From assembly GCA_949372875.1 (NCBI GenBank), contig CASIAW010000013.1:1-35107 (forward strand): a DNA stretch of 35,107 bases, read 5' to 3'. Position numbers and translations under genes: made by a program. The notes under the pieces were generated by a model. The model was not told the DNA's origin. It was given only the letters and a program-made list of their open reading frames with translations, and ran no database searches. Below, piece after piece: positions 6,341-34,497 of this stretch (position 1 is its first letter; each line of letters starts with the position of its first letter). The stretch is from Candidatus Poseidoniaceae archaeon (GTDB lineage Archaea > Thermoplasmatota > Poseidoniia > Poseidoniales > Poseidoniaceae).

Positions 6341-7476
6341 TCACCCACTAATATCGAATCAATAAGTGGAGAGATAAAGGAAGTAAACTTGACTTCTCCT
6401 TCACGTGAAGCATGAGTGAAATCATTGAAATCTTCCTCCACCCAATTGTCATTCCAAATTAGATCATGAACAGTAATACCATCAATTTCTGCGTATGTAC
6501 TTGTTGTCAAATTGTAATAGTCCCATTGACCTACGTCAAGCCGATCAATCAAGACAGGATTGTAAGGCAGTCCAACCAGCAATACGGGTATATTCGCATT
6601 GGTTAGTGATTCCAACATGAACTCAAAAGCGATTTGATTTCTATTTTCAACCCCTTCTGAGTTATGGTACGGGCCATCTAGGTAATTGTCCAATCTCTCC
6701 CCATAAAATTCTTCGATCGTAAGAGTCGATTTACCCTCCTTGATGAATTTTAGACTATTCCTAAACTGCGTAGGATATTGTATATATGCCTCATAATTGT
6801 AATTTTCATCACTTTGCAAAGGTACGCAATGAACTCTTCCAGTAATTGGGTCACAGGAGTATGGCTTTTCCTCTATTTCAAATTCATACAGAAATGTTTT
6901 TTCTAATGATTCTGGGGTGAGTGAAGCAGTGTACAAAATCTGTTCCGATTTTTCCATCGGTAAAAATTTAACATCTTCTTCGAAAAGGATATTTTCCCAA
7001 CTTTGCTTGCCCCATTCAGTATTCAGTGCCATCAACTGAGACATACGTTGAATTGAACCCTCATCTAATGTTTGAGGGATTGATGAAAAAGTGTTGGCCC
7101 CGATCTCAATAATGATTAATTCTGGATTTAATTCAATTATTGCATCAATTTCTATCATACGTATATACGGTTTATCTCCTGCATATGCTAAGTTATAGAA
7201 ATCTCCATCAAAAGTCGTATTTTCGCCTATTGTGATACCGTTGAAAATCTCTCTCATTTTTGAACTACCTATTGCAATGACTGGGTTTTCACTGTTGTCT
7301 TCAATATACTCATAGGCATCAAAGGTGAAAGCATATCTTCCCAACTCATTGACCGATCCATCGTACAGGCGGGGCTTAACAACGGAATCTTGAATCAAAG
7401 GGAAAAAGAGAAGAAGAGTTACTACTGCAATTGTGATTGAAGATGCAAGGCCAGCTCTTGTAACCTCATCGTCCAT
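6337..7476 (-). CDS. Membrane-anchored SGNH-like acyltransferase partner (AlgJ/AlgX/DltD-like role)
   Basis: This 379-aa protein has one N-terminal transmembrane anchor (about 11-28) and an extracytoplasmic domain. It carries SGNH blocks: AIGSSKMR (Ser72 as probable nucleophile), YAGDKPY (block II glycine), IIIEIGANTF (block III Asn) and a C-terminal NDFTHAS, giving Asp352 and His355. This domain order plus the 4-bp overlap with the downstream MBOAT gene supports a two-component polysaccharide O-acylation machine. Overall similarity to named families is not obvious by eye, so the functional call rests on motifs and context. The gene is read from the 350-base intergenic region that carries the triple palindrome array. 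Confidence 0.72.
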   Translation of the reverse strand: MDDEVTRAGLASSITIAVVTLLLFFPLIQDSVVKPRLYDGSVNELGRYAFTFDAYEYIEDNSENPVIAIGSSKMREIFNGITIGENTTFDGDFYNLAYAGDKPYIRMIEIDAIIELNPELIIIEIGANTFSSIPQTLDEGSIQRMSQLMALNTEWGKQSWENILFEEDVKFLPMEKSEQILYTASLTPESLEKTFLYEFEIEEKPYSCDPITGRVHCVPLQSDENYNYEAYIQYPTQFRNSLKFIKEGKSTLTIEEFYGERLDNYLDGPYHNSEGVENRNQIAFEFMLESLTNANIPVLLVGLPYNPVLIDRLDVGQWDYYNLTTSTYAEIDGITVHDLIWNDNWVEEDFNDFTHASREGEVKFTSFISPLIDSILVGD

Positions 7477-7828: not shown

Positions 7829-8815
7829 ATGCGAACTGACCGAATATTTGTTTTGCTGATTGTGATTTTATTGCCGATGTCTGGGTGTTTCGACTTTTAT
7901 GAGGACCCTGGTGAATCTCTGCATGAGCACGCAGTTCAACATTCCGAACCGGAAAACAACGAAGGTTCCGAAGAGGAGGAGGAGGTTGAGTACGAATCCG
8001 ATGAACCAAATATCCAACTCGAAGTTGATTCAAATGGTACGGAACCATCATCCGAATATGTCTACGTCAATGGAACCGTCCTTTCTGGAGCCGGTGAGGA
8101 AAATGACGTAATCGTTGAGATTGCATTTGAAGAAGAATACTTCAACGCCTCAGCAGTTGGAAAATATGACCTTATGCAGAATAATACCTTAGACAGGGAA
8201 CAAGAAATTAGCGATGGCGACACTTTTGTGCTTACTCTCTCTATTGAATCTCTGGTGTGTAATACCGCATTTAACCAGACCATCTACATCAAAATCGAAG
8301 AATTACATGAGAACGGAACGGTCCAACACAGTACAATTCTCGAGAATTATTCAGTCGTTGTACCAGCCGGTGACTCCGACGAAGATTGTAACAATCCTAA
8401 CGATAATAATACGGTAAATTCAAACACTGCTCCGGTCGTAACTGATGTCACTATTTCACCTTTGGAAGCCTTACAAAATGATGAACTAACATGCAATTAC
8501 AACGTTTATGACGCCGATGGCGATACATTAGTTGTAAATTTCACATGGCTAGTAAATGGCGAGGTAGTAGGAATTGAAGGTTGGGTGCCGGGTCCACAAA
8601 TCTCTAGCCAATTTAATTGGGAAGATGAAGTAGAATGTTCAGTAACTGCCAGTGATGGTCAGCTAACCAGTAATGCCGGAAATTACACAATTACAATCTT
8701 GCCCGAATCTAGTTTTGAATCTAATGATGATGATGAGTTGCCAGCACTAGGAGCATTTGGAACCATGGCCGCAATTGTTGCAGGCATTTTCGCTTCTGGT
8801 CGTAAAGACGAATGA
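7829..8815 (+). CDS. Acidic surface lipoprotein with Ig-like domain and C-terminal membrane anchor
   Basis: This 328-aa protein has a lipoprotein signal with lipobox PMSGC (Cys20), then a Glu-rich low-complexity linker (about 30-60). A beta-rich region with several N-x-S/T sites follows, then an Ig/PKD-like module starting near TAPVVTDVTISP with DADGDTLVVNFTW (about 200-290). The C terminus has an acidic DDDELP segment followed by a hydrophobic helix and a basic RKDE tail, which resembles archaeal C-terminal sorting or anchoring tails. I do not recognise a specific family. It probably sits on the outer face of the membrane as a binding or scaffolding protein, anchored at both ends. It is preceded by the palindrome array and followed by the cytochrome b561-like gene. 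Confidence 0.75.
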   Translation: MRTDRIFVLLIVILLPMSGCFDFYEDPGESLHEHAVQHSEPENNEGSEEEEEVEYESDEPNIQLEVDSNGTEPSSEYVYVNGTVLSGAGEENDVIVEIAFEEEYFNASAVGKYDLMQNNTLDREQEISDGDTFVLTLSIESLVCNTAFNQTIYIKIEELHENGTVQHSTILENYSVVVPAGDSDEDCNNPNDNNTVNSNTAPVVTDVTISPLEALQNDELTCNYNVYDADGDTLVVNFTWLVNGEVVGIEGWVPGPQISSQFNWEDEVECSVTASDGQLTSNAGNYTITILPESSFESNDDDELPALGAFGTMAAIVAGIFASGRKDE

Positions 8816-8893
8816 GAGATTAGACGTTCATCTGTACCTGCTTGTGAAATCAGTAGTGATCTCAATAATTGCTGCAAATGCGATGAGAGCGGT

Positions 8894-8923
8894 TGTATAT
8901 ATTCAGCCACAACGCTAGCGTTG
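8894..8923 (+). promoter_or_regulatory. Putative TATA box plus perfect palindrome before the cytochrome gene
   Basis: TGTATATATT (about 8894-8903) is a good archaeal TATA-like element. It is followed by the perfect 14-bp palindrome CAACGCTAGCGTTG (8910-8923), which overlaps the expected transcription start and the first possible start codon. The position would suit a repressor site; no regulator is identified. Confidence 0.4.
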
Positions 8924-9607
8924 GTATGCCCATTCGAGCAATGGGTCCTCGCGATTCAGGTGCTGAGACTATTCAATAACAAGGTGCTTTTGGGATTGGA
9001 TGTGGAACGAACTCATACTCTTCTTGCAAAATCGTTTCATTGGAGTTTTATTCTCCTGTATGTATATGGAATTTTCAAACAAGTCAACAATTTAGAGGAT
9101 CTTGAGGACACAAATCTCCTTTTGTTTGAGATTGTTTTCGCCACTGTTTTCCTCGTTATTGTCATTCTACGCTATTCATACATGAGTCGTTTTAAGACGT
9201 TCTTGGGGTCTCAAGAACCAGTTCACATCGTTCATTATTACTTTGCACGAACAGTTCACAAAGCCATGTATGCCTGCTTTATTCTTTTGCCGCTGACAGG
9301 CCTGGTGATCGCCGGATTGTACAATCAAGGATACACGGTAAACGCAACGCCTGATGAAGAGCAAACTGTTATCGATTTGGTATTAGATTTACATGGGGCT
9401 GTAGCAAATCTCAGCTACATGCTTATTCTCCTTCACATCGCAGCAGCCATTTACTCTCGAATTAAGGGCGAAGGAGTCTGGTCCTCTATGGTACCAATCT
9501 TGAAAGAGGACAAGCCAACAAAGAACAAGATAGTCAATAAAATGGCATTACTAGAAGGACAATTCTACGATAAAGTTCAGGCACTTTTAACTCGGAAAAA
9601 GAAGTAA
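8921..9607 (+). CDS. Cytochrome b561-like membrane protein
   Basis: This 228-aa protein has four main transmembrane segments and histidines placed as haem b ligands: FHWS (His40), TVHKA (His113), DLHGA (His158) and LLHIAA (His172). The pattern and the RIKGEG cytoplasmic motif after the last helix match prokaryotic cytochrome b561, which carries electrons across or within the membrane, often to quinones or superoxide. The start is uncertain: TTG at 8921 opens the frame, but GTG at 8960 would also keep all helices, and no clear SD precedes either. It is convergent with the methyltransferase-like gene. Confidence is high for fold and low for redox partner. Confidence 0.75.
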   Translation: MVCPFEQWVLAIQVLRLFNNKVLLGLDVERTHTLLAKSFHWSFILLYVYGIFKQVNNLEDLEDTNLLLFEIVFATVFLVIVILRYSYMSRFKTFLGSQEPVHIVHYYFARTVHKAMYACFILLPLTGLVIAGLYNQGYTVNATPDEEQTVIDLVLDLHGAVANLSYMLILLHIAAAIYSRIKGEGVWSSMVPILKEDKPTKNKIVNKMALLEGQFYDKVQALLTRKKK

Positions 9608-19501: not shown

Positions 19502-19565
19502 ATCGTGGATGCTGCAACATTGAGTTGAAGTAGGACTTTGTAGAGTGACTTCTACGGTGACAAAC

Positions 19566-20651
19566 ATGAGTGACGACCATTCAGTTCGAGCGGCATCTCT
19601 TGAAGCACGATTATCCACTGTTCAGATGGAGATTGATGATGACGATGAAGACGTTCTTTTGGTTTCTATCGACATGACCAATGAGGCAGCAATTCCTCTT
19701 GGCGGATTAGAGGTTCATGTCTTGACAAGCGATGGAAAAAAGGTGGAGTCTGATTCTGGAATCACTTCGCTTGGCCCTGGTTTGACGCGCAACTTTTCAT
19801 TTGAATTCCCTCTCGAAACTGGCACATGGACCTTTTCGGTTTCTGGAGCCGGACAATCTCTCTCATTAGGTCCCTATGAAGCAGATTTCACGTATGAAGC
19901 AGAGCAAGGTCGGGCGTTTGGCAATGCGATAGGCTCAACTTTATTCAGCGGTGCATTTGATGCGAACCTCGACACCTTTGGTAAAACGGCGGAGCGAGAA
20001 ATCATTGACCCATCCTCGGTTGTTCTTACCTCCTATAGCGGAGAGAATGCTGCTGGAGGATCTACCAAAATCTCACTTGGTGAAGAAAAGGTTGAGGTCA
20101 AAAAACAATCCAAAGACGGTCCTCGAACCCCCCCCTGGGAACAGAATAAAACCGTCGAACCTGTTCAAGCAGAACCAACCCGAGCCTCTGGAGATTTACT
20201 TCTTCACGTTGCTCAAACCAATCTTTCCCCAGACCCTATCGTTGAAGATATCCCGGAAATCGTAGAATCTGTAACTCCTGAGGTTGCAGCGACACCACCG
20301 TCTCTCCCGACTCCTCCTGCGACACCTGCAGTCGAGGCACCAACACCAACTCCTCCATCCAGTCCCCCGAGTGGCCCACCATCCGGTGGCCCTCCAAGTG
20401 GCCCTCCAAGTGGCCCTCCAAGTGGCCCTCCAAGTGGTCCACCCTCCGGCCCTCCAAGCGGTCCACCCTCCGGGCCTCCAAGTGGCCCTCCAAGCGGTCC
20501 CCCCTCCGGTCCTCCAAGTGGCCCTCCAAGTGGCCCTCCAAGCGGTCCCCCCTCCGGTCCTCCAAGTGGCCCTCCAAGCGGTCCACCCTCCGGCCCCCCA
20601 TCAGGTGGTCCACCATCAGAGCGACCGCCTCAACGTCCTACAGAGCTGTGA
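19566..20651 (+). CDS. Protein with beta-rich domain and long PPSG repeat tail
   Basis: This protein has 361 aa from ATG 19566 (MSDDHSVRAA); a GTG 21 bases earlier also opens the frame. Residues about 1-150 form a beta-rich domain with LLVSIDMTNEAAIPLGGLEVHVL and SFEFPLETGTWTFSVSG, which looks like an Ig-like or CARDB-like fold. A charged linker follows (to about 230), then a Pro-rich region ending in 20 PPSG units. There is no signal peptide or transmembrane segment, so the tail may be cytoplasmic unless export uses another signal. I do not recognise the family. It could be a structural or scaffold protein working with the neighbouring RDD membrane protein. Confidence 0.65.
   Translation: MSDDHSVRAASLEARLSTVQMEIDDDDEDVLLVSIDMTNEAAIPLGGLEVHVLTSDGKKVESDSGITSLGPGLTRNFSFEFPLETGTWTFSVSGAGQSLSLGPYEADFTYEAEQGRAFGNAIGSTLFSGAFDANLDTFGKTAEREIIDPSSVVLTSYSGENAAGGSTKISLGEEKVEVKKQSKDGPRTPPWEQNKTVEPVQAEPTRASGDLLLHVAQTNLSPDPIVEDIPEIVESVTPEVAATPPSLPTPPATPAVEAPTPTPPSSPPSGPPSGGPPSGPPSGPPSGPPSGPPSGPPSGPPSGPPSGPPSGPPSGPPSGPPSGPPSGPPSGPPSGPPSGPPSGPPSGGPPSERPPQRPTEL
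20364..20606 (+). repeat. 12-bp tandem repeat coding for 20 PPSG units
   Basis: There are twenty 12-base units coding Pro-Pro-Ser-Gly, interrupted by one extra glycine codon after the second unit. Units fall into a CCTCCAAGTGGC type and a CCACCCTCCGGC type, which alternate in larger blocks of 24-36 bases; this suggests block duplication. Length variation between strains by slippage is likely. Confidence 0.9.
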
Positions 20652-23564: not shown

Positions 23565-24794
23565 TTAATTCACTTCGTCTGATTCAGCGAGAGCCATCCG
23601 TGTATCACTGTGTTGATCCCAGATGTGGAGTGAACGGCCTCTCAATGATTGCCAATGAGCAGCGAGTAGATGTTCCATTCCTGAAAACAGAGAGCCTATC
23701 GTTGAGAGAAGTGGGATTTTGATTCCTTGACGATCAAGAAGCCAGGCAGTCAAACACCCTAATTCAATCATAGCAAGCGTTCCATGCAATACAGCAAGTG
23801 TTCCATTTGGCATTCCTGCAAGACTAATGATACTCCAGCGAATAACTGCAGCAAATGCAGCTCCAGCGAGGAGTAATGGGGCAAACAGATGGAAGTGCGC
23901 CTCACGTCGTAGAATACTCGCAAAAGTCCCTAACCTCCGGTCAAACCATCGTTTGCGATGGCTTACCAACAACCGTTGCAAGCCTTGGCCTCGGCGGATT
24001 TTTTGGCGCCTTTGTCCTTCAGGAGTCGTTGGTGCAACGTCTTCAAAGTAGACATCACTGTCATGTAGACTGCGTAATCCATTCAATCGAATACCAGTTG
24101 CAATTTGTGCATCATCTGCATTTGATTGAACATTGAGTTGCGTTGATGAAAAACCACTGTGTCTCCACATCATGCATGAGCCTTCAAGAAACGGTGTAGA
24201 ATCTCGAGCCGACTCTCCCTCCCGAAGCATTTCGAACATCGAACGGTGCGTTCGTTCTGCTTGAAGCGCTTGTTTTCGCAACGCCTTTGCTCCAACAGCA
24301 CCAATGGATCGGTCAGCAAACCACCCTTGCAATCGCGAGAGGGCGTTTGGCGGTAGCATAGCGTCAGCATCCGTCATGCAGACGAGACCGTGATAGTCTC
24401 GCTCTTCCAGAGAATGGATGGCTTGACGTACAGCCTCAGTCTTTCCGAGACGTTTCTTCATTTCAAGAACAGTTGAGTTCTCAAACGCCTTTGGATTTTC
24501 TTTCAACCATAACTTGGCAATTGATAGCGTTGAATCGGTCGAAGCAGAATCAATCAAGAGAAGAGAGAATCGCATGTTTTGTGATGCAAGGTTGTCAAGT
24601 TTTTTCTTGAGGATTAATTCTTCGTTCCATACGGGCAAAAGAACGGTCACAGAAGGCAATTCAGCAGAATGTACCGGATACTCAATCCCCTTCTTTCTCC
24701 ACATTCCTACCGAAATTCGGTGAATAAGAAATGGAGCCAAAGCAGCAACTCCCAAACCGACTTCAACCAAGGCCGGAATCCACACCATGACCAT
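23565..24794 (-). CDS. Family 2 glycosyltransferase with membrane segments
   Basis: This 409-aa protein has an N-terminal transmembrane helix (about 5-25) and a GT-A domain: VTVLLPVWNEE, LLLIDSASTDST, the metal-binding CMTDADAM, and FLEGSCMMWR. The acceptor-side motif EGQRRQKIRRGQGL resembles the QxxRW motif of processive GT2 enzymes with a changed last residue. Two to three C-terminal helices follow (about 305-375). It is expected to transfer a sugar from a nucleotide donor to a lipid-linked or growing glycan on the cytoplasmic face. It is convergent with the pilin gene. Confidence 0.86.
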   Translation of the reverse strand: MVMVWIPALVEVGLGVAALAPFLIHRISVGMWRKKGIEYPVHSAELPSVTVLLPVWNEELILKKKLDNLASQNMRFSLLLIDSASTDSTLSIAKLWLKENPKAFENSTVLEMKKRLGKTEAVRQAIHSLEERDYHGLVCMTDADAMLPPNALSRLQGWFADRSIGAVGAKALRKQALQAERTHRSMFEMLREGESARDSTPFLEGSCMMWRHSGFSSTQLNVQSNADDAQIATGIRLNGLRSLHDSDVYFEDVAPTTPEGQRRQKIRRGQGLQRLLVSHRKRWFDRRLGTFASILRREAHFHLFAPLLLAGAAFAAVIRWSIISLAGMPNGTLAVLHGTLAMIELGCLTAWLLDRQGIKIPLLSTIGSLFSGMEHLLAAHWQSLRGRSLHIWDQHSDTRMALAESDEVN

Positions 24795-24893: not shown

Positions 24894-25886
24894 ATGCCAA
24901 AGGTACTCCACATCGGTCCGTGTGAGACGCCAGGCGGTATGGCAAACGTGATGCGTATTCTTGCAGAACACCCGCCAGATGGTTGGGAGGCTGAAGTTCT
25001 ATCCTCCCATGCAGTTGGCTCTCCATGGGCGAAATGGAGAGCATATCGTCAAGCACGTGCATCACTTAATCAAATACTCAAGGATAACACACGACGTCCG
25101 GATATTGTTCATCTTCATACGGCTGCTGACTGGTCGTGGTGGAGAAAACGCCGATTTGCTCGAATGGCACACATGGCAGGAGTTCCAAATGTTGTACATA
25201 TTCATTCTGGGCAATTCGACACCTGGCTTGAATCTCCGGAATCGAAGCGTAGTCGAACATTGAACGCATTTCTCAAAGCCAACCAAAGCCATACAGTTGT
25301 ATTGGGAGATGGCTGGAAAAAGCGTCTGGAGCCTTTTCTTGGAGCTGTTTATCCAATGAATAATCCAGTTGATGCCGACATTCAACCAAGTTCGATTGAA
25401 CGCGATGTATCTCACCTCCTTTTACTTGGGAGAGACGATGCTGTGAAAGGCCATCAGTTTGCCATCACCGTATGTGAAAAGGTACGGAAGGAATTTCCCG
25501 AACTCAAGGTTACGATGACTGGCATCTCTTCAAGCCCTCATGAGTGGCTTTCTGCTCGTGGATGGGTGAGTGATTCAGAAAAGAAACACCTTCTCCAAAC
25601 CGCTTCACTTCTCCTCGTTCCCTCGACCTTTGAAGGTCAACCACTGGTCATTTTAGAAGCTCTTACTTGTGGCCTTCCCGTACTTGCCTCAGACCGAATC
25701 ATTTCTCCTGAAGGAATCGAAAGTGCCCCTTACCAAGATGTAGATGGATGGGCGTCGTCAATATGTGATGCTTTGAATTCTTCAAATGTGAAAACAAGTG
25801 AAACGATTCAAACAGATGTGTTCAAAACCGAATATGTATCTCAGCAATGGGGACTTTTCTATTCAACTGTCTTGGGCAATGAGTGA
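24894..25886 (+). CDS. GT4-like glycosyltransferase
   Basis: This 330-aa GT-B fold protein has the N-terminal Gly loop ETPGGMANVMR, IVHLHTAADWSW, HIHSGQF, LLLLGRDDAVKGHQF and the C-terminal STFEGQPLVILEALTCGLP with the E-x7-E motif of retaining GT4 enzymes. It uses a nucleotide-sugar donor for surface glycan synthesis. Its last 24 bases overlap the convergent next gene. It starts at ATG 24894, divergent from the GT2 gene by 99 bases. Confidence 0.87.
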   Translation: MPKVLHIGPCETPGGMANVMRILAEHPPDGWEAEVLSSHAVGSPWAKWRAYRQARASLNQILKDNTRRPDIVHLHTAADWSWWRKRRFARMAHMAGVPNVVHIHSGQFDTWLESPESKRSRTLNAFLKANQSHTVVLGDGWKKRLEPFLGAVYPMNNPVDADIQPSSIERDVSHLLLLGRDDAVKGHQFAITVCEKVRKEFPELKVTMTGISSSPHEWLSARGWVSDSEKKHLLQTASLLLVPSTFEGQPLVILEALTCGLPVLASDRIISPEGIESAPYQDVDGWASSICDALNSSNVKTSETIQTDVFKTEYVSQQWGLFYSTVLGNE

Positions 25887-26987
25887 AACAATCGATGCTT
25901 CAAGAGCGTCAACAGAATGAGACCATGCAAGGTATTCTTCCGCATACTTTCGGGATTGAAGGGCGAGATTTTCAATGTGTGATTGTTCAAGACTTTGCAA
26001 CCATTTCACTCCTTCATCATGAAACTCTGATTGTTGAACCAGTTTCATCCAATCGAGTTTCACTTTACTGGTAAATCGATGTCCGTCATGATTTATTCCA
26101 AACATCAAAAGTCCTGATGCTGCGTATTCACTTCGCTTGAGTGGACTGGAAATCATCCACATTTTTCTTTCGGGCATTGGTAACAATCCAATATGGCACT
26201 GAGATAAAATGGCTGCCAGATCTTTTTGTTCTAATGTAGGGTGAACAGTGACGTACTCATTTGTCGCTGCCATGGCCTGTAGCCCCTCAACGCAATCTCC
26301 TTCGCCGATCAGGATTAACTGGACGTTGAGTCCCGAGGTTCTTGCTTTTTGAAGAAGCATAGGTAAGGCAAGAACACCTCGATGTTGGTCGAGTTGACCG
26401 TGATAAATCATGGTCAATGTATCATAGCGTTCTGCCATAGTGAATTTCTCGAGATCAACTCCAGCAGGTAAGACAGTAATTTGAGCTTGTTTCACGCCAG
26501 TTTTCGTACTGACAAATTCACGATGCTTCAAAGAAACGACACAACCATGACCAGATTTTTCGTCTCGAACTCGTTTCCAACTTCGTTTCCATGAAGGCCA
26601 TTGCAAGAGGGAAAGAAGTCCTTTGTCTGCAGGTGGGCTGCGGTCGATGAGAATCCACGGAATTTTTCGACTTTTTAGCTCTGGAATCAAAATATGAGCA
26701 ATCCGCCAATCCACCAGTGCGAACGCTTCTTTTCCAAGGTTGTTTTTTCTCAACCAGTGTTTCATGTTTTGACCTAGGCTTTGAGAACGACGCCCAGGAA
26801 AAGTAGAGATTGCAATTGACTGGTGTTGCCAAGGCCATTTCTCATGACTCAGTTCAGGATCTGAATTCACAAATGTGAGGTCATAGCCACGCTCGATAAG
26901 TCCGGAGGCGAGTGAGGTTTGAGTCGTTGCACAGAGGTCCTTCATTGAGCGACCTGTGAACCAATAGATATTCATAAAAATCCCCAT
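25863..26987 (-). CDS. GT4-like glycosyltransferase
   Basis: This 374-aa GT-B fold protein shows IYWFTGRSMKDLC at the N terminus, TVLPAGVDLEKF (the linker motif between the two domains), MIYHGQLDQHRGV, LILIGEGDC and the donor-site motif SSPLKRSEYAASGL. It is a typical group 1 transferase without membrane helices. ATG at 26975 (MNIYWF) is an equally good start. It overlaps the previous gene tail-to-tail and is divergent from the PP-loop gene at 27138, with a 150-base A+T-rich region between. Confidence 0.83.
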   Translation of the reverse strand: MGIFMNIYWFTGRSMKDLCATTQTSLASGLIERGYDLTFVNSDPELSHEKWPWQHQSIAISTFPGRRSQSLGQNMKHWLRKNNLGKEAFALVDWRIAHILIPELKSRKIPWILIDRSPPADKGLLSLLQWPSWKRSWKRVRDEKSGHGCVVSLKHREFVSTKTGVKQAQITVLPAGVDLEKFTMAERYDTLTMIYHGQLDQHRGVLALPMLLQKARTSGLNVQLILIGEGDCVEGLQAMAATNEYVTVHPTLEQKDLAAILSQCHIGLLPMPERKMWMISSPLKRSEYAASGLLMFGINHDGHRFTSKVKLDWMKLVQQSEFHDEGVKWLQSLEQSHIENLALQSRKYAEEYLAWSHSVDALEASIVSLIAQDS

Positions 26988-27137: not shown

Positions 27138-28526
27138 ATGATTCGGCGGTTCCTGATGCGTCGGGCCTACAACGACGGTTCTTGGGAGAAAGCAAGAAGG
27201 TATGCTTTTCAAATCCTCGACCAACCGAAAGAAACCCAACTCGCTCGTAGTGTAATTATTCGATCTTTTTGGAATCAAGAGAATACTACTGAAGTAATCC
27301 GTCTAAATTCGCTCTGGGATAATGAGTTTGATGAACTCTCTCTCAAGGCCGAGTATGTTTTGCAAAAAGGTGAATCTCCGAATTCTGAAATACACCATCC
27401 GCGGATTTTGAAACTTCATAAGAACCAGATCCGACCTCAAAATGAACAGAAACAATGGAATGATGAGGACATTGTGGATAATTTTTGGCAAGAGGGGTCC
27501 CGTGTATGGATGTTACACCCACATGGTTGGACGTTTTGGGATATGCCGGGAAATTTTTCTCTTTCTACAACACATCCGGACTTGCTAAGACTCACAGCAG
27601 AAGTTTTACTTTACCCTTGGCAAAAATCGACCCTTCAATCGTTTGAAGGCACTCGTAAACTCGGCTCCCTGCCAGCTTTGGCTTTTTCCGCAGGTACAGA
27701 CTCAACTGCTGCGGCCTTGGTCATGCCCGAAGAAACGATTCTTGGATACCACCGACGGAATTTTGAGAGTATTCTTGATCATCGTAATGCCGACAAATTA
27801 CTTGAGCATATGAAAAGGGATAGAGGAAAACAGGTAGTAGATATTTCTTCAAACCATGAACTTATTCGAACTTATTATCATAAACAGATTGGGTTTTCTT
27901 CTGACTTCGCTAGTGGCACTCACCTGATTCTTCTCGCTGACCACTTCGATATTGGCGCAATTGCTTTTGGAACACCGTTGGATAATACATGGCTTTCAAA
28001 GGGCAGAAAATTTCGTAAGTTTGAGGATACCAGGTATTTCAAATACTGGACAGAGCGTTTTTTATCTGCAGGAATTGAATTGTTCTTACCCATTGCAGGA
28101 ATTTCTGAAGCAGGAGCAATAAAAATATGTCAAGATTCCGAGATACTTCCATATCTCAACTCCTGTTTGCGAGGTGATGGAAAAAAGGGCTGTGAAGGTT
28201 GTTGGAAATGCTTCCTCAAAAACGGACCAATTGGACGTCCATTCGATATCCAAGCAAATGAGATACAAACCTTTCTTCGACGTAAACCTTTACCAACCGC
28301 TACACACGCGTTATGGGTTTTACAACAATTAAATCTTGAATCTGAAATACTTGAATTAAGTACATTCTTGGAGTCTGATTTATCATGGTGGACTTCATCA
28401 TATCCGCCTGCCAAAGAAATCATTCCTTTACGATGGAGAGAAGAAACATGGAAGAAGATTCATCAGTATCTTGCTCCACTAGTAGAGCCTTACCCCATAG
28501 AATCGATAAATCTCTACGATGAATGA
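27138..28526 (+). CDS. QueC-like PP-loop ATP-pyrophosphatase protein A
   Basis: This 462-aa protein has three parts. Residues 1-110 are helical and TPR-like (WEKARRYAFQILDQP). Residues 120-175 contain HPDLLRLTAEVLLYPW, shared with its paralog at 31952. Residues 178-365 are a PP-loop ATPase: SAGTDSTAA (184-192), FGTPLDNTWLSKGRKF, LPIAGISEAG, and four cysteines at 343, 352, 355 and 358. That C-x8-C-x2-C-x2-C spacing is the same as the zinc site of QueC, the 7-cyano-7-deazaguanine synthase. PP-loop enzymes adenylate a carboxylate or carbonyl. No other deazaguanine genes are in view, and the neighbours are glycosyltransferases, so a role in modifying an acidic sugar is inferred. It pairs with the GT-like gene 103 bases downstream. 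Confidence 0.75.
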   Translation: MIRRFLMRRAYNDGSWEKARRYAFQILDQPKETQLARSVIIRSFWNQENTTEVIRLNSLWDNEFDELSLKAEYVLQKGESPNSEIHHPRILKLHKNQIRPQNEQKQWNDEDIVDNFWQEGSRVWMLHPHGWTFWDMPGNFSLSTTHPDLLRLTAEVLLYPWQKSTLQSFEGTRKLGSLPALAFSAGTDSTAAALVMPEETILGYHRRNFESILDHRNADKLLEHMKRDRGKQVVDISSNHELIRTYYHKQIGFSSDFASGTHLILLADHFDIGAIAFGTPLDNTWLSKGRKFRKFEDTRYFKYWTERFLSAGIELFLPIAGISEAGAIKICQDSEILPYLNSCLRGDGKKGCEGCWKCFLKNGPIGRPFDIQANEIQTFLRRKPLPTATHALWVLQQLNLESEILELSTFLESDLSWWTSSYPPAKEIIPLRWREETWKKIHQYLAPLVEPYPIESINLYDE

Positions 28527-28629
28527 TTTCATACCTCACACTACGAAAGGGCATTAAAATATCGCTATTCGCCAATATGACAATAACATAGAGCAATTGA
28601 CACACAATCATAGACAGAGGTGAGGCAGC

Positions 28630-29928
28630 ATGGAAGATGGAGAAACACGGCTTTTTCGCCTTCAAAGAGAAATTCATCGTCTTCGGACATCGCCTTCTCT
28701 TCGTTTAGGATCTCATCTCACTAATGCTATACGAATGCCCTGGCTCGCTCCATTTCTTATCTTTAGTTTGCCTTGGATGATGTTGATGATTGGATTTGAA
28801 CTTCTTGGCTGGAAGTCACAACCTGCTGCCCTGGAAATCAATTCCTCGGGGCGATTATCTTCGAAGGGTAATTGCATCGTGATGTTTCCTACCAATGGTG
28901 TGGGTTTTGGCCATTTTACTCGTATGCTGGCTGTTGCCAAGCGGATGAAAAGCATCGATTCTAAGTTAGAAATCATTTTTTTCACAACAATGCCTACTTT
29001 ACACCTCTTGAAACCTTATGGCATTCCAGCTCATCACATCTCAGGCCCGAAATATTTCAGAGACATGGATTCAGCAGAATGGAATTCTCTTCTTGAAGAA
29101 GAATTGAATATTTGTTTTGAAACACATCGTCCAAGTATGTTTCTCTTTGATGGCGCCTTCCCATATAGGGGAATGTTACGCGCTATACAGGGGAGAAAAT
29201 CAATGGAGAAACTTTGGATGCGACGCGGCACATTCCGCAAAGGCTCATCTATCCCAGTTGATAGTATACAATATTTTGATACAATTATCCATCCTGAAGA
29301 TAGCGTTTCAACAGCTGGAGATAACCTTGATCATGATCTCGAAGTGATTACATGCCCACCGATTGTAATGCTTGATCATGATGAACTTCTATCAAAAGAA
29401 AAATCACGGTCTCGTTTGGGCCTCCCTCAAGATGCTACTGTAGTTTATGTTCAACTTGGTGCGGGCGAGATTAATGAAATTGAAAGTGAAGTCCGTCTTA
29501 CTTTGGAGGCGTTACTTGAAAACCCAGAAGTATACATCGTTCTCGGTGAATCTTTGATTGGTGAGCGTATTCACTTTGAATTACCACGTGTTCAAATTTT
29601 ACGTGATTATCCGAATTCAGTATATTTCCGAGGTTTCGACGCAACCGTTCAGGCTGGTGGTTACAACTCATTTCATGAAACTCGAACGTTTGGCTTACCA
29701 GCCTTATTCTATCCAAATATGAATACTGGAATGGATGACCAACTTGCTCGCTGTAAGGTTGCTGAACAAGAAGGCTGGGGGATTGTACTCGAAACAAGAA
29801 CGCCAAAGAAGATAAAAAATTATTGCCGGCAATTAATTTTAAGCATAGGTCCTAAAAACCAGTTAAGTGTTGAAAATGGAGCACACATTCTTTCTAAAAC
29901 CCTCGTAAGCCACTTAATCGAAGACTGA
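28630..29928 (+). CDS. GT-B glycosyltransferase-like protein A (MurG/GT28-like C-terminal domain)
   Basis: This 432-aa protein has an N-terminal extension (1-60) with LRTSPSLRLG and hydrophobic PFLIFSLPWMMLMIGF. This resembles the S-x-x-RLG segment found at the ends of some glycan-synthesis transferases and could bind the membrane. The GT-B core then begins with TNGVGFGHFTRML (the Gly-rich acceptor loop of GT28 enzymes), and includes SMFLFDGAFPYRGML, YVQLGAGEINEIESE, and AGGYNSFHETRTFGLPAL followed by DDQLARC, which match the donor-binding half. A hexose or aminosugar transfer to a lipid-linked acceptor is expected. A paralog is at 33226. Confidence 0.75.
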   Translation: MEDGETRLFRLQREIHRLRTSPSLRLGSHLTNAIRMPWLAPFLIFSLPWMMLMIGFELLGWKSQPAALEINSSGRLSSKGNCIVMFPTNGVGFGHFTRMLAVAKRMKSIDSKLEIIFFTTMPTLHLLKPYGIPAHHISGPKYFRDMDSAEWNSLLEEELNICFETHRPSMFLFDGAFPYRGMLRAIQGRKSMEKLWMRRGTFRKGSSIPVDSIQYFDTIIHPEDSVSTAGDNLDHDLEVITCPPIVMLDHDELLSKEKSRSRLGLPQDATVVYVQLGAGEINEIESEVRLTLEALLENPEVYIVLGESLIGERIHFELPRVQILRDYPNSVYFRGFDATVQAGGYNSFHETRTFGLPALFYPNMNTGMDDQLARCKVAEQEGWGIVLETRTPKKIKNYCRQLILSIGPKNQLSVENGAHILSKTLVSHLIED

Positions 29929-30020
29929 AAGACCCGTAATTTCTAGGGCTGTTTGAACTGTTAGTAGAAATAAGACAATCAATGGTTTCGAGAAAAGGAA
30001 AATCGTTTGTATGCACGGCC

Positions 30021-30854
30021 TCAATTCGAGTTTAATAATTTGGATATAGATTTCAATTGAATCTCCCCAACAATTTCGAGTTTGTCTTTTGCATAGTGGT
30101 TAAGGTCATTGCCTTCTTTCATGAGTAGATCTTTAGCTTCATATTCTTCAAACATTGTTGCAGGATTAAACACTTGTAGGTTTCTTTCTTCTGCATATTC
30201 ATTGATAATGTTGCATAATTTATTCCGTGAAGTAATGAGTTTACCATTAGTGCCTGGCAAGTTAATGTGATTGACAAATAAAACTGGAATTTTAGCAAGG
30301 TTTCTGATTTCATCTAAGTCTGAAGAAATTATCTTACTGTCCTGTACTACTGGAACAAGTTCTGAGATGAGGTTTGAAAACTCTTCGGGAAATTCGTCAG
30401 GTATTTTTTGTTTTGGCATTTGAACAAAGTGCTCTCTTTTATTGAATGCATTGTTGAGGTTTTGACGCAATTCCATTCCAAAGTCGCCATGTGGGGTGCA
30501 CATGTGTCTTGCAACTTCATTAAATTGTAGTGGGTTTCCATTTGCAGACAATGACTTTATTGTAGAAATCTCTACAACTAAAATATCGGTCTCAGAAAAA
30601 TCAAAACCCTCGTCGGGCTTGGTTTTTTTCTCATTTGATTCTCCGACCTGAAGTTTTAGAAGAGTTTCCTTATATGTTTCCAATTGCAGTAAAACTTTGA
30701 GTCTTAGCACAGCTTCTGGCGTACTGTGAATGAAAGTTCCAAGACCACCATTGTTCATTACAATACGTTTTTTTTCTGCTAGATTACGTAGGGTGTGGTG
30801 AACTCGACAAGTCCCAATTACCGTGACAACTGGCAATTTTCCTTCTAGGCCCAT
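30021..30854 (-). CDS. Putative SGNH/WcbI-like surface-polysaccharide protein
   Basis: This 277-aa protein has no signal peptide. It starts with VVTVIGTCRVHHTLRNL, a strand-turn like the GNCQ/GSCR block I of WcbI-, GSCFA- and SGNH-type proteins. It has VVEISTIKS in the middle, VLFVNHINLPG, and near the C terminus EGNDLNHYAKDKL, which could supply the Asp and His of an SGNH-type site. These proteins are linked to acyl decoration of capsules. The match is weak and the nucleophile Ser is replaced by Thr/Cys, so the enzyme class is uncertain. It is read opposite to its neighbours and sits between the two PP-loop/GT pairs. Confidence 0.5.
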   Translation of the reverse strand: MGLEGKLPVVTVIGTCRVHHTLRNLAEKKRIVMNNGGLGTFIHSTPEAVLRLKVLLQLETYKETLLKLQVGESNEKKTKPDEGFDFSETDILVVEISTIKSLSANGNPLQFNEVARHMCTPHGDFGMELRQNLNNAFNKREHFVQMPKQKIPDEFPEEFSNLISELVPVVQDSKIISSDLDEIRNLAKIPVLFVNHINLPGTNGKLITSRNKLCNIINEYAEERNLQVFNPATMFEEYEAKDLLMKEGNDLNHYAKDKLEIVGEIQLKSISKLLNSN

Positions 30855-30980
30855 GTCTTTATGAAGAGCGCATTATTTATCAATCTTACACAAATCGAGT
30901 CGCTACTGTACTTCGGTAAAAGAATACATTGTCAAAAAAGAAGAGAAACCTTTGAAGGATAAGTCAAATGACGAGCAAAC

Positions 30981-31979
30981 ATGGTAGAAGAGGCGACTTA
31001 CGCACAAATGCATGTTCTTGTTACAGGCGGGGCTGGTTTTATCGGTTCCAATTTAGCCGAAGTCTTGATTACAAGGGGTTGTAAAGTAACAGTGTTAGAT
31101 AATTTACTTACAGGGCATTTAGAAAACATATCTCACCTCCTTGATCACCCTCGGTTTTTTTTCATTGAAGGGGATATTCGAGATTTTGCAACATGCCAAT
31201 CCGCGATTAAAGGTTGCACACATGTTAGCCATCAAGCCGCCCTTGGCTCAGTTCCGCGCTCAATCGATGATCCACTATTGAGCCTGCATATCAATATTCT
31301 CGGAACTACGAATGTATTTTTTGCTGCCAAAAAAGAAGGGGTTAAGCGTGTTATTTTCGCCTCAAGTTCTTCTGTTTATGGAACCGACGAGACTTTGCCT
31401 AAAGTTGAACAGATAACAGGAACTCTTCTTTCACCATATGCTTCAAGTAAACGTTCAACAGAACTGATTCAAGAAGCATTTGTAAGCAGTTATGACATGG
31501 AAATTATCGGATTCCGATACTTCAATGTGTTTGGGCCCAAACAGGACCCGAATGGCCCTTATGCTGCGGTGATTCCAAAATTTATTTCTTCTATGATGGA
31601 TGGGGAAATACCACAGATATATGGAGATGGAGAACAAAGTAGAGACTTTACGCATATCAGTAACGTCGTAGAGGGGAACATTCTAGCACTCACTTATCCA
31701 AATGTTAAAAATATAAACGGGGAAGTGTTGAATTTAGCTTATGGGGGGACAACCACAGTAAATGACATTTTTTATGGGATTCGCGATGCTTTAGCTAAGC
31801 ATAATTCGGGCTTGTCATCTCTCGAACCACAGTACTCGAACAAGCGTAAAGGGGATATTTTGCACTCACATGCGAATATCTCTAAGGTTATATCTCATCT
31901 TGGTTATTCCCCTCAGACAGATCTTCGTGAAGGCTTAGATCAAACTATTTCTTGGTATTTTCATCAAAACCAGAGTTGA
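30981..31979 (+). CDS. UDP-hexose / UDP-GlcNAc 4-epimerase (SDR family, WbpP-like)
   Basis: This 332-aa extended SDR enzyme has the NAD-binding VTGGAGFIGSNLAE, the HQAALGSVPRSI signature seen in WbpP-like UDP-N-acetylhexosamine 4-epimerases, the catalytic SSSSVYG and YASSK, FRYFNVFGPKQDP, and YGDGEQSRDFTHI. It interconverts UDP-Glc(NAc) and UDP-Gal(NAc) for surface glycan synthesis. ATG at 31008 (MHVLVTGG) is the start typical of the family; 30981 adds nine residues. It overlaps or touches the next gene, so it is probably co-transcribed with PP-loop protein B. Confidence 0.9.
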   Translation: MVEEATYAQMHVLVTGGAGFIGSNLAEVLITRGCKVTVLDNLLTGHLENISHLLDHPRFFFIEGDIRDFATCQSAIKGCTHVSHQAALGSVPRSIDDPLLSLHINILGTTNVFFAAKKEGVKRVIFASSSSVYGTDETLPKVEQITGTLLSPYASSKRSTELIQEAFVSSYDMEIIGFRYFNVFGPKQDPNGPYAAVIPKFISSMMDGEIPQIYGDGEQSRDFTHISNVVEGNILALTYPNVKNINGEVLNLAYGGTTTVNDIFYGIRDALAKHNSGLSSLEPQYSNKRKGDILHSHANISKVISHLGYSPQTDLREGLDQTISWYFHQNQS

Positions 31980-33229
31980 TAAACGTGATAATTTCTTACC
32001 ACTACGAGCAAGGTAAGTTAGAATTTAACTATCAATGTGAGTCGGAGGAACCCAAGGAATCTTCTGCCAAAATGTCTCGAACTAAATTTTTTGTAGAACT
32101 CCCCGTTGATGTCCCGATTGACTCAATCCATCCAGATCATCTCGCGCTATGTGCTTTCTTGGTGATTCGGCCTTGGGTCAATAAAAAATTAACTTTTTCA
32201 ATTCCAATTAGTCAACGTTTTGCAGATGGTTTGAACAAATGTAATTTCACAGTTGGCCCTGTGGACGAAAATCTGGAACCGTATTTACCTAAAGGCGGTT
32301 TGAGTTATATGGGATTGGCATACAGCGGGGGCGCAGACTCAACTGCCGCTCTTTCGGTTTTACCTAAAACCACTATTCCTATCTTTCTTGATCGGCCAAA
32401 AATGGAAAACACTCTCTATTCAAAAGAAGCTGCAATACAATCCTGTGAAAATCTTAAAAAAGTGGGATACCAGTGTTTGCTAATCAAGTGTGATCTTGAA
32501 TCAATGCGAGAACCATTAGGATTCCCTACTGACCTTTCTAACGGAGTTCCGGCGATACTTCTTGCCCAAAAATTAAATCTTTTTGCTATCTCTTATGGTA
32601 CAGTTTTAGAATCAATGTACGGGTTAGGTCGTCTAAAATTCAAAGATTATGAGGAAACATCGCATAAGCGAATGTGGTGGGATGTGTTTGAATCAGCGGG
32701 CTTGCCTCTTACTTTTCCCATTGCTGGTGTAAGTGAAGTCGGAACAGAATTAATCTGTTCACGTTCGAATATTGGTTCAATTGCGAGATCGTGTATTCGC
32801 GGTACTGCCTCGGAACCTTGCTATAAATGCTGGAAATGTTTTCGAAAGTTGACACTTAAGCAAAGCCTTGACTTAGGGGCTGAGGGTGACGAACACCTCA
32901 TTGGCCTAATTTCGAATAAAGAAGTAAGGACTAAGTTGTCTAAAATGCCAATAAGCCACGAAAATGTTCTCCTTTATGCCTTCTCCAAACTAGAAATGAG
33001 CATTTATCCCCCAGGTTTTTCAACCCGGTTTTCACATAACCTAGATCTTGATTACTTGGAAAAATGGTATACTCCTTCGAAGGCATACATTGATTCCAAA
33101 ATAAGATCTGAAGTAATTTCAAATATTAACCAATATATTTCACCCATGCAAGAGAGAGAAGAGGAATTAGTCAAAGAATGGGACAATCAAGTACGTATTG
33201 AAAAATTAATACCTTTAGAATATGATTAA
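31952..33229 (+). CDS. QueC-like PP-loop ATP-pyrophosphatase protein B
   Basis: This protein has up to 425 aa. It lacks the TPR-like N terminus of paralog A but shares HPDHLALCAFLVIRPW, the PP-loop SGGADSTAA (125-133), a YGTVLESMYGLGRLKF loop, FPIAGVSEVG and cysteines 281, 290, 293 and 296, again C-x8-C-x2-C-x2-C as in QueC. PP-loop A has SAG where B has the canonical SGG. The start is unclear: TTG 31952 opens the frame inside the epimerase gene, and GTG 31985 lies just after its stop. It is convergent with the GT-like gene at 33226, overlapping by 4 bases. Its substrate is unknown; an activated carboxylate is the inference. Confidence 0.75.
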   Translation: MVFSSKPELINVIISYHYEQGKLEFNYQCESEEPKESSAKMSRTKFFVELPVDVPIDSIHPDHLALCAFLVIRPWVNKKLTFSIPISQRFADGLNKCNFTVGPVDENLEPYLPKGGLSYMGLAYSGGADSTAALSVLPKTTIPIFLDRPKMENTLYSKEAAIQSCENLKKVGYQCLLIKCDLESMREPLGFPTDLSNGVPAILLAQKLNLFAISYGTVLESMYGLGRLKFKDYEETSHKRMWWDVFESAGLPLTFPIAGVSEVGTELICSRSNIGSIARSCIRGTASEPCYKCWKCFRKLTLKQSLDLGAEGDEHLIGLISNKEVRTKLSKMPISHENVLLYAFSKLEMSIYPPGFSTRFSHNLDLDYLEKWYTPSKAYIDSKIRSEVISNINQYISPMQEREEELVKEWDNQVRIEKLIPLEYD

Positions 33230-34497
33230 TTATGATTGTTCATGATGACTTTGACAAGTTTTTCAGTACCACTCTCAATCCCTAGTTTAGCCATTCTTTC
33301 TTTGAGTTGGACTTGAACATCACTGTCAGCCAACCGGTTCAAAGCAGCGTCGATAAGTCCATCGCCCATCATTGAATCAAGATACATGAGAGGCAAATCA
33401 TCAGTTCCAAATTCTTCTGATAACTCTTTCAATGTCGTTTTTTCGTCAGCAATTGATAAGGTTGGAATATTCAAATGAAAAGATGTGTGAATACTGTAAT
33501 GGTCTGGGTAAAGAACGGCTGCATCTGAAACCATCATTGCCCCAGAATAGTTTAGATTCTCATCACATATCGTTCTTGGATGATTGATTACAGATAAAAT
33601 CTTCATGTTTTGTCGGACGAGCAAAAATACATTTTCATTGGACAAAAGGCTCAGTGCTATTTTCTCAGTAAATTCATCTTTCACGCCAATATCAAAGAAG
33701 AGTAATGTTGCACCAAGAGGTAGGTGCTTTTCACGGAAAAGTAGACAGTCATTTCGACTTGGCGAATGGCTAATTATTGGGTTACAAAATATGGAACCAG
33801 ACCTCCCTATATTGATGTCAGTATCTGTTGTCTTTGAGATACTTGGATGAATAATTGCGTCGAATTGTTCAAATCCATCAATCGGTAGTGATGAAATCTT
33901 AAAGTTTTGAGAGGATTCTCGTACCCAATACCGATTCATTCCCTCTCGAAGACCCATCGCATTTAGCATTCCTCGGAACGGATAGTCGCCATCAAAAATA
34001 AAAGTTTTAGGAGAATATATATCAAAAATAGTATTGAGAAAAACCTCACATTGGTGATTCCATAATTTTGGATTCATTCCTTTCACACTGCTGCGTTCAG
34101 GAAAGGTATAGTATTGCACGTTTTTGTTCTGATTATGGACCCCGTCTTTATGGGTGGTAATGTGAAAGATTTGTGTATTCTTATCGTTTATGCTTTGAAT
34201 TATTGACTCACAGCGATCAAAGTGCAACCCCCGGGGAGATTTGGTTGAAAATAAGACTACACAATTGCGCATTATTCGTGGTTCCGACTTGTGATCAAGC
34301 CCCTTTTCTCTTAAGATGGCCCACATTAATTTTGGAATTGAAAAAGGCAGAAAAAAGATTTTCCAAGGTCTTTCGATTGCTTTTACCAGAAGGTTTCCAA
34401 ATCGAAAAGACGCCGTTTGGACGTATTCTCTTAAGTTCTTCTTGCAGAACCTCCTCCTTCCGAGAGAGTGTAAGAGGAACATTGTATTCTTCCACAA
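33226..34497 (-). CDS. Diverged GT-B glycosyltransferase-like protein B
   Basis: This 423-aa paralog of the protein at 28630 shares the N-terminal extension (ASFRFGNLLVKAIERPWKIFF), TFIFDGDYPFRGMLNAM, RYWVRESS, SLPIDGFEQFDAIIHPS and the overall domain order. Its catalytic signatures are changed: the Gly-rich GVGFGHFTR is SPRGLHFDR here, and the AGGYNSFHE donor motif is PDHYSIHTS. It may have a different donor, or be a non-catalytic partner. It is convergent with PP-loop protein B and divergent from the partial TPR-like gene. Confidence 0.7.
   Translation of the reverse strand: MWKNTMFLLHSLGRRRFCKKNLREYVQTASFRFGNLLVKAIERPWKIFFLPFSIPKLMWAILREKGLDHKSEPRIMRNCVVLFSTKSPRGLHFDRCESIIQSINDKNTQIFHITTHKDGVHNQNKNVQYYTFPERSSVKGMNPKLWNHQCEVFLNTIFDIYSPKTFIFDGDYPFRGMLNAMGLREGMNRYWVRESSQNFKISSLPIDGFEQFDAIIHPSISKTTDTDINIGRSGSIFCNPIISHSPSRNDCLLFREKHLPLGATLLFFDIGVKDEFTEKIALSLLSNENVFLLVRQNMKILSVINHPRTICDENLNYSGAMMVSDAAVLYPDHYSIHTSFHLNIPTLSIADEKTTLKELSEEFGTDDLPLMYLDSMMGDGLIDAALNRLADSDVQVQLKERMAKLGIESGTEKLVKVIMNNHN

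Follow-up and report, generated by a model that had tools for sequence, protein, structure and literature searches.

The window analysed here is one complete contig (35,107 bases) of a 13-contig genome from the Poseidoniales, the Marine Group II archaea, which are abundant and uncultured. Between positions 27138 and 34497 it carries two pairs of genes, each consisting of a PP-loop protein and a protein related to GT-B glycosyltransferases (GTs). The first pair comprises PPA (27138..28526) and GTA (28630..29928), both on the forward strand, and the second comprises PPB (31952..33229, forward strand) and GTB (33226..34497, reverse strand). All four open reading frames (ORFs) were found where an initial annotation, made from the letters alone, had placed them. 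The pairs are separated by genes for a TviD-like protein (30021-30854) and a TviC-like epimerase (30981-31979). Genes in these and related loci were called by the longest-ORF rule, weighted by GC content at third codon positions (GC3) in GC-rich loci.

PPA and PPB are members of DUF6395 (Pfam PF19932), with E-values of 1.2e-20 (74.6 bits) and 1.8e-39 (136 bits), respectively, against a gathering score of 25. They are paralogous, as had been proposed, with 30% identity over 360 aligned columns (E 2e-41), and the motifs read from them by the initial annotation are present: HPDLLRL and HPDHLAL, the PP-loops SAGTDS and SGGADS, PIAGISEAG and PIAGVSEVG (PPA and PPB, respectively), and four cysteines with the identical spacing CX8CXXCXXC. 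All of 72 aligned homologues match PF19932 at E<=1, and 68 of them fit the pattern [SA][GA]GxDS of an SGGxDS-type PP-loop. The tetracysteine is exact in 58; 13 of the remaining 14 have another first spacing and one is missed by the pattern. A search of the window's genome with PPA found two places, PPA itself and PPB (query 178-450, E 3.3e-33), while a Pfam search for DUF6395 detected, beyond these, just a short remnant on a different contig. Another contig of this genome (L040, G000:C6:1-12000) has remnants of an extra DUF6395 gene and GT gene at its start (492-833 and about 1901-2083), where they adjoin a nucleotide-sugar dehydrogenase divided over two ORFs.

The description of these proteins as QueC-like is supported at the level of the predicted fold. 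In profile comparison by hhalign, DUF6395 scored 88% against QueC, with an alignment running through the tetracysteine and QueC profile rows that extend into a fused C-terminal domain. Against MurL (UDP-MurNAc-L-Ala-L-Glu epimerase) it scored 93%, with SE, SC and CXXCXKC positions in common. Among the controls, Escherichia coli AsnB gave 1.2% and reversed QueC 0.1%, but argininosuccinate synthase gave 82%, so that these values alone cannot rank the relatives of DUF6395. A structure model of PPB (predicted local distance difference test, pLDDT, 93.1; predicted template modelling score, pTM, 0.93) had three matches at E<=1e-3 among viral structure models, all of them phage QueC (template modelling score by target 0.53-0.62). 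Foldseek found nothing in the PDB at E<=1e-3, the top matches being LarE (2.4e-3), TilS and TrmU, with GMP synthases lower. Sequence searches of the PDB with DUF6395 or MurL, and a tblastn search of phages for DUF6395, gave no useful result.

Family models link DUF6395 to both enzymes. Pfam QueC (PF06508) weakly matches 31 of the 72 homologues (best 7e-4) and the NCBIfam QueC model eight (best 0.011), while the NCBIfam MurL model matches none at E<=1. In the reverse direction, Pfam DUF6395 matches three of six MurL or MurL-like proteins (best 6.6e-6). One match is above its cut-off (26.7 vs 25 bits), to a clear clostridial MurL encoded beside MurD in genome G310 (NF041275 4.9e-76, under that model's cut-off); no match was found in 14 control genomes, 12 of which match QueC. 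QueC and MurL are therefore both close relatives of DUF6395, and these matches set no order between the two. QueC shares the fold, the PP-loop, CX8CXXCXXC and the weak family matches, but has about 220-230 amino acids (aa) and lacks the flanking domains of DUF6395. MurL has the PP-loop, the SE and SC positions, an N-terminal domain and a length of about 450 aa in common with DUF6395; its tetracysteine is CX8CXXCXXC in L220 and L215, and in Xanthomonas sacchari MurL the first spacing is longer. It differs in adjoining murD and in serving peptidoglycan synthesis. By eye, the 28 neighbour clusters most frequent across 79 DUF6395 loci included no recognisable Mur ligase, rarer clusters falling outside this set. 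Orthology to QueC was rejected, because its substrate motifs YxQxHxxE, VPxRN and YPDC are each absent from all 72 homologues (E. coli QueC, as a control, has all three) and because the window's genome encodes a separate QueC elsewhere. According to passages of a survey of the QueC family, QatC also lacks these motifs (PMC13329287).

Several related proteins were noticed in passing. MurL-like proteins occur on Pseudonocardia plasmids (L222, L223 and L224) with no murD annotated nearby, and two of the three adjoin large WD40-annotated genes. A further PP-loop-like family is represented by L045:7482-8687 and L216:1477-2739, the latter with GGVDAF and CX8CXXCXXC; the gene on the Priestia plasmid, some 6 kb away from DUF6395, looks similar by eye.

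The partner proteins GTA and GTB are likewise paralogous (28% identity over 358 columns, BLASTP E 2e-32). Both carry the expected FDGxxPxRGML motif (FDGAFPYRGML and FDGDYPFRGML, respectively) and an N-terminal SPSLRLG or TASFRFG preceding a hydrophobic stretch. A GT-B fold is supported for GTA. It is predicted to be a canonical, GT1/GT28-like enzyme with an N-terminal helical extension: its model (pLDDT 83.7) matches 348 PDB structures at E<=1e-3, including 6j31 (1.7e-11) and MurG (9.7e-11), the best 50 of the 348 all being GT-B enzymes by title, and the donor-site motifs GxGHxxR and GGxN of a nucleotide-sugar site are kept. Among PDB entries, the profile of the family finds UDP-glycosyltransferases (6e-6); one of its members, from Halobacillus, has a match to the GT28 C-terminal domain (2e-12). 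GTB has neither donor-site motif, although FDGxxPxRGML and the N-terminal extension are kept, and it is a degenerate relative of GTA. GTA resembles MurG- and UGT-type enzymes in fold and donor-site motifs, and the extension and FDGxxPxRGML set both window proteins apart from them. No Pfam or NCBIfam family over cut-off covers GTA or GTB. Of 61 family GTs near DUF6395, simple patterns found both donor motifs in 28, one in 15 and neither in 18, some of the last being fragments.

The pairing of the two families recurs. In the window's class, 50 of 339 genomes have both (GT at E<=1e-10, DUF6395 at E<=1e-5), nine DUF6395 only, 13 the GT only and 267 neither (Fisher 3.7e-38, ignoring relatedness). 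A GT match lies within 1.3 kb of 60 of 88 DUF6395 copies, within 3.5 kb of 66 and on the same contig for 72, as detected with a profile (A4) whose source loci were selected for carrying DUF6395, a bias in favour of such GTs. In bacteria the association is looser. Among 17 named bacterial genomes that encode DUF6395, eight have some GT-profile match, full-length in four; the GT stands beside DUF6395 in Halobacillus, Alkalithermobacter and Oceanirhabdus and about seven genes off in Cellulosilyticum. The bacterial counts exclude L048, L053, L085 and L113, which carry bacterial labels but have genes like those of the archaeal loci. The GT profile matches 57 of 291 Clostridia genomes at E<=1e-3, only the centre genome falling below 1e-20 (next 7.7e-14) and the remaining matches covering mainly the C-domain. 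Among 391 Clostridia genomes, three had matches above the Pfam DUF6395 cut-off (G060, G674 and G310), that in G310 being the MurL adjoining MurD. The contig scan yielded at least 75 DUF6395 loci, which constitute a sample. DUF6395 was also seen on IMG/VR contigs of 41-297 kb (L041-L044, around 8000-9050), within a run of glycan genes in L043 and L044 and near DNA polymerase-like genes in L041 and L042 (neighbours by eye).

Recurrent adjacency, which the initial annotation had taken as the test of a functional unit, is seen in the window's class and in three Bacillota genomes, but not in most of the 17 named bacterial genomes with DUF6395. An obligate GT partner was rejected, as 13 of the 63 GT-bearing genomes of the class have no DUF6395 (some at contig ends) and 13 of the 17 bacteria have no full-length GT. 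In 12 loci with the GT but no DUF6395, genes for ABC (ATP-binding cassette) exporters are recurrent, as are proteins some 970-1090 aa long, and nothing uniform was found there as a non-homologous substitute partner. A functional unit is partly supported by the adjacency and by a partial match between PP clade and GT type, though not in the form of an obligate pair.

This match also bears on the origin of the two pairs, which had been attributed to co-duplication. The DUF6395 tree (a quick search without bootstrap, midpoint-rooted for drawing) has two deep clades, A (54 rows) and B (40 rows), each with archaea and bacteria. Clade A holds PPA (in subclade A1), GT2 fusions, phage-size contigs and Pseudomonadota, and clade B holds PPB, Bacillota, Actinomycetota and others. 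The fetched loci contain 99 DUF6395 genes; 56 of them directly adjoin a family GT and 43 do not (10 at a locus end or outside the tree). Clade A1 genes are paired with clade-A GTs in 14 cases (two fragments), plus one unplaced fragment, and clade A2 genes with degenerate GTs in eight. Clade B genes are paired with other canonical GTs (15), clade-A GTs (five), degenerate GTs (two) and degenerate fragments (three). Eight further pairs involve genes outside these clades. Five loci (L062, L064, L067, L068 and L069) have a single GT between two DUF6395 genes. Co-duplication was thus not borne out, and a recent tandem event was rejected since PPA and PPB belong to separate deep clades and GTB is without the donor-site motifs. 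Judged from the trees and the pairing pattern, the two pairs are old lineages assembled into one cluster and not recent duplicates.

Both pairs sit inside a cluster of genes apparently responsible for the archaeon's surface sugar coat, and much of this polysaccharide cluster is kept in related genomes. It includes a GT2-type glycosyltransferase (23565..24794, reverse strand) and two of GT4 type (24894..25886, forward; 25863..26987, reverse), all syntenic in related loci. The TviD-like protein between the pairs (30021..30854, reverse) is a possible polysaccharide acyltransferase (NCBIfam PRK15180 5.1e-14, far under cut-off). The neighbouring SDR (short-chain dehydrogenase/reductase) epimerase (30981..31979, forward) is closest to TviC, a UDP-GlcNAcA C4-epimerase (PRK15181 1.6e-84, top of 99 families, under cut-off). 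A nucleotide-sugar 6-dehydrogenase lies on the same contig (224..1294, forward; TIGR03026 3.3e-89, above cut-off); its family match begins only at model position 83, and an ORF in another frame (13-303) may carry the start. Elsewhere in the window, an MBOAT-like membrane protein and an adjoining SGNH-like protein (4880-7476) resemble O-acetylation pairs by eye, and the protein at 19545-20651 ends in a long PPSG-type repeat.

Polysaccharide genes surround DUF6395 in most loci examined, and fusions of DUF6395 to GT2 and GT7C domains occur. Within four genes on either side in 79 loci, the family GT was found in 47, an SDR epimerase in 39, an ABC exporter ATPase in 28, and a GT4 and a nucleotide-sugar dehydrogenase in 27 each. 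In the 21 bacterial or viral loci the dehydrogenase is the commonest neighbour (eight; GT three, epimerase two). In 10 of 13 bacterial genomes a dehydrogenase is found no more than 8 kb from DUF6395, compared with four of 22 initial-sugar-transferase loci in the same genomes (p 0.001), one of these four being the DUF6395 locus of genome G061 itself. Shorter distances gave 7/13 vs 4/22 at 5 kb (p 0.035) and 6/13 vs 3/22 at 3 kb (p 0.043). The thresholds were picked post hoc and contigs were matched to loci by coordinates. L074, L078, L099 and L116, on short or cut contigs, were left out (four of 17 bacterial genomes), and L080 and L121 were entered manually as having no near dehydrogenase (about 12.8 kb away for L080 if its contig is C701). 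All eight full-length or long dehydrogenases scanned have a UDP-HexNAc (N-acetylhexosamine) type as best equivalog model (TviB or UDP-ManNAc dehydrogenase), all under cut-off. In eight loci a UDP-GlcNAc 2-epimerase-like gene adjoins DUF6395, and the one representative checked by family search is of WecB type. Compact operons join dehydrogenase, GT-B-type GT and DUF6395 in Alkalithermobacter, and dehydrogenase, GT2 and DUF6395 consecutively in G674. The related clusters suggest that DUF6395 chemically alters acidic sugars.

The literature searched yielded no paper naming DUF6395 and nothing useful on amidation of N-acetylgalactosaminuronamide (GalNAcAN) or on PP-loop proteins with uronic acid. 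In the text covered by a term search of the 2026 QueC-family survey, neither 'polysaccharide' nor 'glycosyltransferase' occurs (PMC13329287).

Our preferred reading, held tentatively and with somewhat less than even confidence, is that DUF6395 acts in surface-polysaccharide assembly by adenylating an N-acetylhexosaminuronic acid at its C6 carboxylate, most likely giving a uronamide, and that GTA adds the residue. PPA and PPB would act as ATP-pyrophosphatases that bind ATP through the PP-loop, and their QueC/MurL-type tetracysteine probably holds zinc. The nucleotide-sugar 6-dehydrogenase would supply a HexNAc-uronate, sometimes followed by the TviC-like 4-epimerase, and AMP would be transferred by PPA or PPB onto its C6 carboxylate. 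Ammonia or an amine would most likely attack the activated carboxylate to form the uronamide, and GTA would add the modified residue, or its neighbour, to the growing glycan. GTB has probably lost the ability to bind a donor sugar, and its role may be limited to keeping the acceptor or the PP-loop enzyme at the membrane. The characterised proteins nearest to DUF6395, QueC and MurL, each have a carboxylate as their target. An amide is preferred as the outcome, given that bacterial glycans are known to contain uronamides and that PP-loop enzymes mostly form C-N or C-S bonds. One such uronamide is made by WbpS, an AsnB relative, as described in passages of PMC7468200. WbpS and WbqG would share a product with DUF6395 but belong to the AsnB family, from which DUF6395 is distant in the hhalign comparison. 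In archaea, Methanococcus voltae has ManNAcA (N-acetylmannosaminuronic acid) with threonine at position 6, and the threonine-attaching enzyme of M. maripaludis was called unidentified in the relevant section of a 2010 review (PMC2952790); DUF6395 might accordingly use an amine in place of ammonia.

Several observations weigh against this uronamide reading. The window's own dehydrogenase is 26 kb away from PPA, and 11 of the 21 bacterial or viral loci have no dehydrogenase by the four-gene or 8-kb count. Two of these 11 (L041 and L043) do have a short dehydrogenase-like gene by eye, that of L043 giving no NCBIfam match at 1e-40, and another four come from contigs that are short or cut. An AsnB-like protein, of the type known to form uronamides, occurs in five of the 79 DUF6395 loci, so that amidation there could have another agent. 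Finally, MurL epimerises its substrate instead of amidating it.

The last point leads to the best placed of the alternatives, although we consider it unlikely. DUF6395 may adenylate the C6 carboxylate of a (UDP-)HexNAc-uronate and thereby acidify the C5-H; C5 would then be deprotonated and reprotonated from the opposite face, and hydrolysis would release an L-configured uronate. MurL is ATP-dependent, its family name implies a UDP-sugar-linked substrate, and its layout of N-domain, PP-loop, tetracysteine and C-tail is similar. The shared positions at 93% in hhalign, the match to half of the MurL or MurL-like proteins and the G310 MurL exceeding the Pfam cut-off also favour this route. Yet the NCBIfam MurL model reaches no DUF6395 protein while the QueC model weakly reaches eight, the hhalign score is not specific given that of argininosuccinate synthase, and the C-N and C-S bonds mostly formed by PP-loop enzymes point to amidation. 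By analogy, DUF6395 might stand beside QueC and MurL as the third catalytic branch of their group, using ATP to epimerise nucleotide-linked hexosaminuronic acids at C5 via carboxylate adenylation, the presumed mechanism of MurL; this wider proposal is doubtful. If it is true, loci with A and B subfamilies, sometimes around one GT, would make an L-uronate and a further modified uronate.

It is also rather unlikely that the two families have no direct functional link and merely travel together, both being common in variable surface-polysaccharide islands that are swapped as blocks. The GT4, GT2, epimerase and ABC exporter genes of the island are syntenic as well, each family also occurs without the other (GT without DUF6395 in 13/63 class genomes; DUF6395 without full-length GT in 13/17 bacteria), 43 of the 99 DUF6395 genes have no immediate GT neighbour, and the GT profile is biased towards DUF6395 loci. 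Such joint transport is countered by the 60 of 88 copies with a GT within 1.3 kb, by Alkalithermobacter, which keeps the adjacency though few other island genes were seen, and by the partial correspondence of PP clade and GT type.

Replacement of the N-acetyl oxygen by NH, as by the N-acetyl sugar amidotransferase (NASAT, WbpG), is improbable. Passages of PMC10607449 assign NASAT, a PP-loop enzyme whose tetracysteine binds zinc, to lipopolysaccharide biosynthesis, but its cysteine pattern, CXXCXn[GN]XCXXC, is unlike CX8CXXCXXC, it belongs to another family, and TIGR03573 matches one of the 72 DUF6395 proteins, at E 0.14. Deazapurine conjugation in a defence-type protein modification, as reported in parts of PMC12424860 and PMC13329287 for Cap9- or QatC-type proteins, is very improbable, since apart from the QueC-type PP-loop and tetracysteine and one NCBIfam QatC match in 72 (0.004), the QueC substrate motifs are absent (as in QatC too), the neighbours are glycan genes and no PADLOC model matches the six proteins submitted, on which ground membership of a defence system was rejected.

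On the uronate reading, a Pfam family without an assigned function, which occurs in archaea, in bacteria and on phage-size contigs, gains a testable role in the activation of uronic acid carboxylates, and the Alkalithermobacter and G674 operons allow this role to be tested without culturing the archaeon. If true, DUF6395 would provide a route to uronamides independent of AsnB, or an ATP-driven route to L-uronates, and would place uronate chemistry on a fold whose more familiar roles are in tRNA modification, peptidoglycan and phage defence.

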